Positions 24,039-35,125 of a DNA stretch of 64,000 bases are shown here, piece after piece (position 1 is the stretch's first letter; each line of letters starts with the position of its first letter). The notes below the pieces were generated by a model. It worked only from the letters and a program-made list of their open reading frames with translations, made no database searches and was not told where the DNA came from. The position numbers and the translations under genes were made by a program. Source of the stretch: Lacrimispora celerecrescens (GTDB taxonomy: Bacteria; Bacillota; Clostridia; Lachnospirales; Lachnospiraceae). The stretch spans positions 124,001 to 188,000 of the forward strand of contig NZ_JPME01000006.1 of the NCBI RefSeq assembly GCF_000732605.1, given 5' to 3'.

Positions 24039-27000
24039 ATGAGTATGATCAACAAAAGAAAACGATTAACGAAACAGATTATCAGCTACCTGCTGTGTAT
24101 CAGCATGATAGCGCCTAACATGACACCGATTGTTTCATACGGAGCGGAGTACATTAACAATATGCCCAGGTATGTGGATTTCACAAGCCCGGATGCATTG
24201 ACACTGGAAGAACTGGGGCTTGACCCGAAGGAGACAGAAACTGAGGAGACGGAAGACGGTACCGGTGAGACCGCTTCTACAGATTCTTCTGACGAAACCA
24301 ACACGGTAGAAACGCCCGAAGTGGAAGAGAGCCACGAGGAAGAAACCAATCCATCAGAAACCAATGCAGAGGAGACCAGCCCGTCAGAAACCGATGCAGA
24401 GGAGACCATTCCGTCAAAAACCGATGCAGAGGAGACCAGCCCGGCAGAAACCGATTCAGAGGAGACCAGTCCGTCAGAAACCGTTGAGAAAGAAAGCGGT
24501 ACAGAAGAAACCGGCAAATCAAATTCCGGGACGGAAGGGATCAAGGAAGAAGAGCAGGACGAGGCCAGAGAGCCAGAATTGTACTACGACTACGATCAGT
24601 ACATCGACGAACCGGAGGGGCAACTGGTACAGTTTAATGAGTCGTACCGTACCTACCGCACTGGAGAGGGTCAGTATGTGACCGTTGCAGGGGGGTATTC
24701 CGGCTTGTACCAGGCTGAGAACGGGGTGATCGGGCAGATAGATAACAGCCTGACCGAAGCGGAAGAGGAGTACACAATAGGTACGCCCTCTAGTGCCCTT
24801 ATGCGCTCCAGGACCAAAACCGTTGCTGGTTATGGGAACAGCGCAGGAAGAAGCAGAGTATTATTTCCAGAAAAATTCTCCACAAGTCAGGGAGTCTCCA
24901 TCGAAAGGGAGGAACACCGGGTTGAGCTCATCCCGTCAGGGGGAAGCTTTAAGAAGAGTGCTGTATCAGACAACACCATTCGCTACAGTGACGTGTACCC
25001 TGGCGTGGATTACCAGTACAGCCTGGTAGGAAACACCTTAAAGGAAGATATTATCCTGCTGGAAAAGACGGAAAGAAATCAATTCTCTTTTTCCATAAAA
25101 GCAGGGGGGCTAAAGGCGGTCCAGGAGAAAAATACAATCATCCTTTACAGCGATAATAGAAGGCACCCGGAATTTATTCTGGAAGCACCTCTAATGATTG
25201 ATTCAGATGGGAATACCAGCGAAGATCTGGTGATGAAACTAAGCGGAGTGGAAGGCAGCTACCGTGCCACCGTTACAGCAGATAAAAAATGGCTTCAGGA
25301 TGAAGACCGAAGCTACCCGGTACGTATCGACCCTTCCGCAGTGAACATGGTTCCCAGCGAGTTTGTGCTGGTAAATGTGGCTGACGGCCAGCCCTCAAAG
25401 TTCCTGGGAAATATGGGACCAATGTATGCTGGATATAGGGAAGGCTTTGGCAATATGAGAACCTATGTTGCCATTAACGGAGACTGGACTCAGGTCATGG
25501 GTCAGGCAGTCTGTACCAAAGCAACGTTCCGTATCGGTACACAGACCGGAAACGGAGTAGGGAATACCCGGATTGAACTGCGCGCACCGGGGAAGGAATG
25601 GAATGCAACCACACTCACATGGAATCAGTTAAAAGAACCCCTTCCGGAACTGATTGATGTTCTGGATTCTCCCGGGCCGGATCAGACCCTGGAATATGAT
25701 ATAACAGCCATGATGCGGTCATGGATGACGGGAAGCAGACTGCAAGCCGGGTTAGAGCTTCAGGCGGCTAACGAGCCTAAGTCTGAAGCCCAGGCACCTC
25801 TCCGGATGCCAGCGGAGAGCTTTTACAACCGGGATAATGCGGCTATGGGACCGAGAATCGACATCTCCTGGGAAGGAGAACTATTAGGAGATTTGGCTTT
25901 ATTAGACGTGGACGCCCTGACGGTACTAGTGAATCCGGCTGTTAAGGAAAGCGAATCCGGCGGCAGGACATCCATGGGTGTTCTGGCTCACGGTATCTCT
26001 CAGGCCGGATCAAAGGTAACGTGGGAACTCCGGGAGATGGATCATGAAGTGGCGAAAGATGAAGTAACGGCGGAAGATTCCTATACATCTCCTGATTTTT
26101 CAAAGGAAGTAGTATTTACTGAGGCCATTAACAGCCAGCCAAAGACAGGGAACTGGCAGAGTAAGGCTCTGGAAAAAGGGTTGATTTTGAAAACTGATAC
26201 CATTTATCAAATAATGGCTGTGGCAGAAGGTGTGGTACTGGAAGAGGATCCAGAAACCGGAGAAATGGTGCCTGGTGTGGAAACAGCCACCAGCGGGGAG
26301 AAGCCCAGCGATGAATTCCTACTCTATGAGGTGCAGGGTCTGGATCTATTAACCCGGATTGCCGATCATTACGGGGTGGAGGAGAAAATCATCCAGAAGG
26401 ACAACCGTTTAAGCAATGGCCTGACTTTCTCCGGAGATCTCCTGTTTATTCGTAATCCGAAGCAAAATGCACCTTATACACCAAAGCCACTTACAGATGC
26501 AGAACAGATGATGATCGACATGCTATTAAACGGTATGGGAAAAGATTGCGTATTCGGTCACGAACCCATTAACATGAATACCGGTGATTTCTTTATGCAG
26601 CAGACGGACACAGAACTTGAAGAGCTGGGCGGAATCTTTGCATTCCAGAGAAGCTATAATTCCATTGCAGCCCACTTCCTTTCCGAGTTTGGAATCGGCT
26701 GGAGCAGCCCCTTTGGCCAGAGGCTGACGGTAAGATATAACGGAGATATCCTGTACCGGAAGGATGACGGCGGAGCCATTAACTTTGCAAAGAAATCCAA
26801 TGGCAGCTATCAGGCGCCCGATGGTTATGATATGGTTCTTGCGGCAACAGATTCCATTGACTTAGAAACGGCAGATACTCCAAGTGATGATGAGGAAGAG
26901 GGATCACCGTCAGAAGCAAGTAACAAAACGTATGTCCGCAATTTCGCCTTTTCAGAAGTTGATCCGGATGGTATGACAGAAGAGGACGAAGAAGTAGAAG

Positions 27001-34715: not shown

Positions 34716-35125
34716 TGAAGATAGAAGATGGATCTATTATACCAGGGGTTGGTATTGGAAATGTCATGCTTGACATCACTAAAAAACAGCTTATAGATAT
34801 TATAGGCAGTGACTTTAAAGAGCGATTTAGAGAAGATGATTCCGTGATTGAAATAGAAAACGCCAAATTCTGGATTGCAAATGATGGAAAGGTAGATCAA
34901 ATTGGAGTTGGAAAAGGTTTTAAAGGAAAATACAAAGATTTCATAGGAATAGGTTCAACACTTAGCGATGTTAAAAAGTGTGTTGGAGATTATGTTACAG
35001 TGTATGATACTTATGAAATGAATGAAGAAAAAGGAATTTGTTTTGAGTTAGAAGATGTAGATGATTGGGCTGAATTAACGGCACCTATTGAATATATTTA
35101 TGTATTCAGGATGAATTCTAATTAA
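34715..35125 (+). CDS. Candidate immunity protein for the RHS toxin
   Basis: Small acidic cytoplasmic protein of 136 residues with no signal peptide or membrane helix. The ATG overlaps the TAA of the RHS gene (TAATG), so it is translationally coupled to the toxin end. I do not recognise the fold by name. It shows GVGIGNVMLDITKKQLIDIIG near the start and a related GIGSTLSDVKKCVGDYVTVYD later, suggesting two similar beta-alpha units that may have arisen by duplication. Position, size, low G+C and coupling are what polymorphic toxin immunity genes show; the pairing is an inference. Confidence 0.72.
   Translation: MKIEDGSIIPGVGIGNVMLDITKKQLIDIIGSDFKERFREDDSVIEIENAKFWIANDGKVDQIGVGKGFKGKYKDFIGIGSTLSDVKKCVGDYVTVYDTYEMNEEKGICFELEDVDDWAELTAPIEYIYVFRMNSN

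Follow-up and report, generated by a model that had tools for sequence, protein, structure and literature searches.

An RHS gene and its coupled downstream open reading frame

The 64,000-nucleotide stretch of Lacrimispora celerecrescens analyzed here (contig NZ_JPME01000006.1, positions 124,001 to 188,000; hereafter the window, to which coordinates refer unless a locus is named) carries a very large gene of the RHS/WapA type, and a small open reading frame (ORF) begins inside its stop codon. The genes and features dealt with below are as follows.

24039..34715, + strand: RHS/WapA-type polymorphic toxin gene, 3558 aa, intact frame with one terminal stop
about residues 1-36 of this protein, + strand: Sec signal peptide-like N-terminus, read by eye with no tool
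25377..25865, + strand: DNRLRE domain, residues 447-609 (NCBIfam NF033679, E 2.8e-14)
26562..26786, + strand: DUF6531, residues 842-916 (Pfam PF20148, E 9.2e-17)
32894..33116, + strand: 21-bp tandem array, 10.6 copies by TRF, an N/G-rich linker preceding the core
33480..33722, + strand: RHS repeat-associated core, residues 3148-3228 (TIGR03696, E 4.6e-9)
33723..34388, + strand: pre-toxin region, residues 3229-3450, common to related RHS genes bearing other toxins
34401..34712, + strand: toxin domain, residues 3455-3558, predicted BECR-fold RNase (AlphaFold, Foldseek, VIA)
34446..34469, + strand: candidate active-site helix, residues 3470-3477 (H3470, K3473, H3474 and D3477 invariant in 7/7 aligned toxins)
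34659..34661, + strand: D3541 in predicted strand 4, Asp in 6/7 toxins and Asn in 1/7 (Ser/Thr in many BECR RNases)
34715..35125, + strand: putative immunity protein, 136 aa, isoelectric point (pI) 4.4, two BamE/BLIP-like units, FEL and acidic loop at residues 110-118
34385..35137 (approximate borders), + strand: exchangeable DNA cassette of about 0.75 kb, toxin domain plus immunity gene, bounded by where homology to loci L069 and L070 ends and resumes
35138..36654, no strand assigned: downstream spacer with homology to the spacers in arrays of RHS cassettes (81 and 92% to L070, 79% to L069, 80% to L002)

A Pfam scan of the 3558-aa protein returned 39 RHS_repeat stretches (E 7.4e-234, beyond chance). 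The RHS core closes with YVDPSGM at residues 3222-3228, leaving a tail of 330 residues (331 counting M3228), and at the junction TAATG the 136-aa ORF (34715-35125) overlaps the RHS stop codon; both frames and the motif positions were found as an earlier note on this DNA, made from the letters alone, had given them. The protein is a WapA-like RHS polymorphic toxin, a type of system already known, having repeats with a C-terminal core, DNRLRE and DUF6531 domains, a C-terminus that is exchanged between relatives and a downstream gene linked to it in the genetic sense only. LysM gave no Pfam match at E ≤ 1 and no NCBIfam match at E ≤ 0.01, and by eye a LysM-like stretch lies shortly before DUF6531. 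The gene directly upstream (21723-23840), the only upstream gene scanned, encodes a type III glutamine synthetase, and within that scope no delivery gene was identified beside the RHS gene.

The toxin domain and the immunity gene are exchanged as one piece

A survey of the genus gave a match to the RHS core at E ≤ 0.001 in 23 of 25 genomes, four of which, the window's own included, carry a core of >70% identity. The window was compared with the corresponding regions of the other three (L069 in genome G014, L070 in genome G013, and L071), tabulating BLAST matches longer than 60 bp that reach beyond position 33000. Against L069 the match runs over 33056-34384 (82%) and resumes at 35197-35692 (79%); against L070 it runs over 33315-34391 (85%), with homology ending at 34393, and resumes at 35138-36409 (81%); a gap lies between in each case. 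The DNA within this gap (34393-35137) gave nothing beyond 14-16 bp words when compared with L069-L071 by blastn at E ≤ 1. At the cassette position L069 holds Ntox33 (E 1.7e-10) and DUF4279 (E 2.3e-26). L070 is an array consisting of a main RHS gene, two truncated RHS copies and a remnant, in which each RHS gene or copy has its own different tail with its own different small gene behind it, and L071 bears yet another tail. Direct sequence evidence is thereby at hand that toxin and immunity gene are exchanged as one piece, and homologous recombination in the flanks may be the route. In L069 the RHS frame is fragmented, and its N-terminal part lies so near the core that the repeat region looks largely missing.

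The earlier note had taken the whole tail to be exchangeable. Exchange itself is borne out by L069 and L070, which match both flanks and hold other toxin and immunity genes between them, but the swapped part is smaller than proposed. In the protein comparison the break falls within residues 3451-3475, after about 220 pre-toxin residues shared with the RHS genes G014, G013a and G013b (not G013c); identities per 25-residue block of the pre-toxin were 17-24 against the former three and mostly 3-14 against G013c. That all 330 tail residues make up the variable toxin is ruled out by this sharing of residues 3229-3450 with genes that bear other toxins. By sequence comparison the exchangeable part is approximately residues 3451-3558, the toxin proper being the last ~105 residues. 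The pre-toxin, whose top hydrophobic 19-residue stretch by hydropathy is 3375-3393, is not itself fixed, since G013c diverges there and locus L002, which carries a relative of the cassette, has no match to the window DNA between core and cassette (33719-34374). L002 matches the window at 34375-35106 (78%) as well as in the RHS core and in the downstream spacer (36267-36654, 80%), and for locus L072 (genome G068) the match, among those beyond 33000, is limited to 34392-35106 (75%). A transposase-like ORF fragment (36455-36685) ends the spacer; a 394-aa relative of it is found behind the cassette of L002 as well (L002:3204-4388), and we take the fragment to be IS110-like from its appearance.

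Changes between the window and L002 are mainly synonymous in both the toxin domain (pN 0.07, pS 0.65) and the 136-aa ORF (pN 0.17, pS 0.67), and the dN/dS ratio of the toxin was 0.04-0.16 in 3/6 comparisons with defined dS. Judged by these substitution patterns, the toxin domain and the downstream ORF are under purifying selection.

Linkage of toxin and immunity gene across carrier proteins

Residues 3455-3558, searched against genome contigs, located six loci, five of which have full-length relatives: C. clostridioforme (88% identity), a Lachnospiraceae metagenome-assembled genome (68%), two Butyrivibrio (65%) and an Erysipelotrichaceae (50%); the sixth (Kibdelosporangium) has the KHG helix alone in common. 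A search of 200 genomes of the family gave 16 matches in 15 genomes, own included, comprising the window, a full-length relative (L009, in G068), a broken copy (L010, in G102) and 13 helix-only matches of 29-47 residues around KHG. These 13 and the helix-only locus L007 were set aside from the linkage counts, which cover L002-L006 and L009, the relatives that are intact and full-length and were located from the toxin. An immunity homologue lies directly behind the toxin in all six, overlapping by 1 nt in four of them and separated by 2 nt in the other two, and a search for this tail with no related downstream gene found no such case among them. L027 likewise carries both genes and stands outside the count because it was located from the immunity side. 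Carrier domains were an Rhs core in L002, LXG in L003 and L005 (the L005 match sitting just at the cut-off) and DUF4280 in L009, and none was recognised in L004 and L006. The coupled gene of the earlier note accompanies these six toxins on different carrier proteins, and relatives of the same cassette travel, as these alignments attest, between carrier types (RHS, LXG, DUF4280). Over seven pairs, toxin and immunity identities were correlated (r 0.89, reached by 4 of 5040 permutations).

From the immunity side, a single-sequence search found the gene in none of 60 other relatives, and a profile search of 392 genomes of the order gave eight matches, spread over six genomes with the window's own among them. 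One of these, L029, is alone in its genome and probably due to chance, its E-value being weak and the protein looking to the eye like one of LysM/peptidase type, and another, L031, was counted uninspected at E 8.6e-4. Two matches, L028 and L030 (G531:C63), seem to be one gene split by ~1.3 kb (profile positions 1-101, then 99-132). The toxin gave no tblastn match in plasmids or phages; the immunity protein gave none in phages and three Priestia records in plasmids (26-31% identity), and viral contigs, scanned twice, yielded no relative. In one of the Priestia records, Priestia megaterium plasmid NZ_CP026738.1, the distant immunity homologue is toxin-less by annotation and lies among SMI1/KNR4, ankyrin and DUF4288 genes, a row that resembles an immunity-gene array.

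The toxin domain is predicted to have a colicin D/E5-like RNase fold

The AlphaFold model of the toxin domain, built on a seven-sequence alignment (pLDDT 91.5, pTM 0.83), consists of two helices followed by five strands. N-terminal helices and then a strand meander is the BECR layout (PMC3482391), and the predicted H-H-E-E-E-E-E order along the chain, together with the structural matches, agrees with a helical segment plus four-strand meander. In VIA-align, rows 1-14 were all colicin D, colicin E5-type RNase or contact-dependent inhibition (CDI) system entries (Z 8.4-4.5; row 7m5f_C being counted whichever partner chain it is), and the first unrelated row had Z 4.1. The top match was 8ey4_A (Z 8.4, root-mean-square deviation (rmsd) 2.7, 76 aligned), and colicin D 5znm_B (Z 6.6, rmsd 3.2, 80 aligned) and colicin E5 2djh (Z 6.5, rmsd 2.9, 86 aligned) were among the others. 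By sequence, a wider KHG branch (alignment A5) matches 8ey4_A at E 3.7e-14 over profile positions 27-103 of 103, and a profile comparison links A5 to the window family with a probability of 97.8% over 34 columns, in the helix. These predictions support a colicin D/E5-like BECR-fold RNase, the earlier note having suggested a BECR-like RNase from motifs; a toxin-like fold, its absence having been looked for, is predicted for the tail.

The candidate active site agrees with that note in part. HYNKHG is at residues 3470-3475, and H3470, K3473 and H3474 are invariant in 7/7 aligned toxins; R3476 varies with Lys and T3546 with Asn, and the catalytic list needs correction there. For colicin D, K607, K608, H611, D614 and S677 are listed as essential (PMC3482391). 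The A5 helix aligns weakly with colicin D KHAGDFG (E 0.36), which on our own numbering would make H3474 and D3477 correspond to H611 and D614. The position of S677 falls, within ~1 residue, on D3541, which was placed by way of alignment A1, where L007 has a Thr, and by the VIA end points with the same precision.

Ntox35, considered for its published 'H, KH' motif (PMC3482391), gave, like Ntox50, no Pfam match at E ≤ 1; in a genome-level search for it the control was silent. Alignment A1 (8 members) had two chance-level matches only in Pfam, and a PDB sequence search with single sequences gave chance-like matches only.

The KHG domain also occurs outside the cassette. Small proteins ending in an 8EY4-like KHG domain were seen in genomes related to the window's (L012, L016, L021, L022, L034 and the truncated L011), and to the eye the N-terminal segments of several resemble secretion or membrane signals; a similar lipoprotein has been noted in Parageobacillus (PMC13068155). 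Such proteins may have a role outside polymorphic toxins. L016 has a further match (E 1.6e-7), to the C-terminal end of phrog_15528, an entry with portal protein as its annotation. In the window's own genome, a second RHS fragment (G000:C7, L073:6213-6926, minus strand) has a tail, HFTNHAGDFG...STYFRP, of this wider branch, and a different gene of 142 aa lies further downstream of it.

The immunity protein is modelled as two BamE/BLIP-like units

The AlphaFold model of the 136-aa protein (six sequences, pLDDT 89.3) shows helix 23-30 with strands and helix 83-89 with strands. Its top VIA match was YfeY (2qzb, Z 11.7, rmsd 2.6, 119 aligned), and DUF4309 YjgB (Z 10.1), 9j9w_A (Z 8.7, 118 aligned, rmsd 3.9), two secreted proteins of the SCP/CRISP type, in regions other than their C-terminal parts (Z 9.2 and 8.7), OsmE over the first half only (Z 6.3) and BLIP (Z 5.3), which we take to be a double unit, were also matched. 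The model supports two consecutive BamE/BLIP-like alpha-beta units. Of the two GxG units read earlier in the sequence, the structural pair was recovered in the model, while a duplication at the sequence level is marginal (hhalign score 15.9 for an internal repeat, equalled by 5 of 300 column shuffles). Relatives of the protein are acidic (pI 4.1-4.8), and FEL followed by acidic residues is present in 8/8 homologues. Pfam and NCBIfam (E ≤ 1) and PADLOC gave no match, and PHROGs gave two weak, chance-like ones.

Proposed mechanism and alternative explanations

Taken as a whole, the locus is in our judgment very probably a WapA-like RHS toxin with a colicin D/E5-like RNase end, a cognate immunity protein and a swappable cassette of ~0.75 kb. 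The RHS protein would be exported via Sec and cleaved at the RHS core, and the toxin would then enter a neighbouring cell, where the last ~105 residues would cut RNA, most likely tRNA, a target that the best structural matches make rather likely by analogy. The 136-aa protein would be the cognate immunity protein and neutralise the RNase, probably by plugging its active site with the conserved acidic loop FELEDVDDW, in analogy to YxxD and TsiN (see below). Recombination in the shared pre-toxin DNA and the shared spacer would swap the cassette for other toxin/immunity pairs. Cassette borders, exchange, linkage, carrier change and purifying selection are taken from sequence and both folds from prediction; the route of recombination, the export, core cleavage and entry of the toxin, its RNA target and the mode of inhibition are our inference.

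Several findings weigh against this explanation. The best Foldseek match of the toxin model had E 0.041, with TM-scores of 0.33-0.41 for the colicin and CDI rows, and VIA's own note states that models with no clear match typically reach Z 7-8, so that Z 8.4 and 6.6 alone prove little; what carries the case is that the top rows agree, together with the sequence link. The window-family profile itself reached 8ey4 only at E 0.23 over 28 positions (the helix), and, as most A5 members were chosen for the shared helix, the remainder of the domain is joined by predicted fold and not by sequence. The toxin and immunity models were built on seven and six sequences. Where many BECR enzymes have Ser/Thr in strand 4, 7/7 window-family toxins have Asp/Asn; the Ser/Thr is found in many, not all, BECR clades (PMC3482391) and does not define the superfamily, so that membership is made less probable and no more than that. 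The toxin domain has a near-neutral pI of 6.1 (family 5.3-6.9), atypical of an RNase, and matched no family in Pfam or NCBIfam (E ≤ 1), PHROGs or PADLOC. L071 matches, in the part compared, the core alone, to 33718, and the second flank is common to two of the three loci. Immunity homologues also occur with no intact toxin in the stretch examined (L025, L026, L028), beside a broken one (L010), and, by annotation only, with no toxin gene in Priestia; these fit orphan immunity and also allow another role.

The Asp/Asn at 3541, the pI and the lack of a match to a curated RNase family would suit a toxin that is no RNase but a BECR-fold domain that either lacks catalysis or acts in another way, with RHS protein and cassette as described. 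We hold this to be unlikely given the invariance of H3470, K3473, H3474 and D3477 in 7/7 toxins, the low dN/dS and the immunity gene kept in 6/6 relatives. An RNase acting on rRNA or mRNA instead of tRNA is a less favoured yet credible alternative: ECL CdiA-CT is counted, in PMC9086364, as a BECR toxin without tRNase activity, but the colicin D (5znm) and E5 (2a8k) entries among the top matches are titled tRNases. Since homologues without a nearby toxin exist and the fold is also that of YfeY and DUF4309 YjgB, which are not known as immunity proteins, the 136-aa protein might be a structural or regulatory partner travelling with the toxin; its gene position and overlap, co-divergence and acidic pI and its structural resemblance to one chain of the TseN-TsiN effector-immunity complex (PMC12574953) make this very improbable. 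Hardly to be expected at all is an RHS protein that is no antibacterial weapon and serves, e.g., in adhesion or against a host: no delivery gene was identified adjacent, the one upstream gene scanned being the glutamine synthetase, but the 3558-codon frame is intact, the immunity gene is linked and the pair is exchanged for other toxin/immunity pairs.

Significance and comparison with known systems

The libraries searched (Pfam, NCBIfam, PADLOC) contain neither the toxin family nor the immunity family, the kind of system being known; literature searches found no title on this pair, which is no proof of absence. We tentatively propose, at somewhat less than an even chance, that the pair founds an uncatalogued carrier-independent family, a BECR RNase with Asp/Asn for the strand-4 alcohol that is neutralised by a BLIP-like tandem fold. 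If so, the BamE/BLIP double unit would, together with TsiN, be a recurrent enzyme-inhibitor scaffold for immunity proteins, like BLIP on beta-lactamase. As this immunity fold would be annotated as a hypothetical protein, similar immunity genes have probably been missed elsewhere. The locus is also a clean natural case of cassette exchange, in which toxin/immunity DNA is replaced between two homologous flanks of one RHS scaffold and the same cassette is found behind other kinds of carrier.

The closest overall parallel in architecture that we compared is WapA-CT1 of Streptococcus suis (PMC12704120), likewise a very large RHS protein (3,158 aa), Sec-exported as the window protein would be, with DNRLRE, DUF6531, an RHS region and a variable C-terminal extension, and likewise with a nearby truncated RHS copy bearing another tail ('Rhs orphan'). 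The toxins differ, CT1 being NucB-like and CT2 being likened to colicin E5; the S. suis protein has LysM, undetected by Pfam in the window protein, and its gene adjoins srtB and a secF-like gene, whereas glutamine synthetase III is directly upstream here (one gene scanned). For the toxin, CdiA-CT of E. coli O32:H37 (8EY4) is the best structural match and is related by sequence to the wider KHG branch along almost all of the domain, but it is CDI-delivered, has Thr (RTMF) where the window family has Asp/Asn, and resembles that family directly in the helix only; a literature search by this accession returned no activity paper and only a passing mention. The RNase domains of colicin D (1V74, 5ZNM) and colicin E5 (2DJH, 2A8K) are alike in fold (Z 6.6-5.8), and the KH..D motif of colicin D is kept (K3473, H3474, D3477); they have no family model in common with the window toxin, in which their strand-4 Ser/Thr is not kept. 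In Bacillus subtilis 6633, YxiD is a Gram-positive BECR toxin whose immunity protein, YxxD, places an acidic loop on the active site (PMC12700104), but the toxin is Ntox50, the immunity fold Sm-like and the carrier LXG. The immunity model resembles 9j9w_A, which from its residue numbers would be TsiN; TsiN (9J9W; PMC12574953) blocks its toxin sterically, although that toxin is an unrelated DNase and the two immunity proteins share 7% sequence identity.

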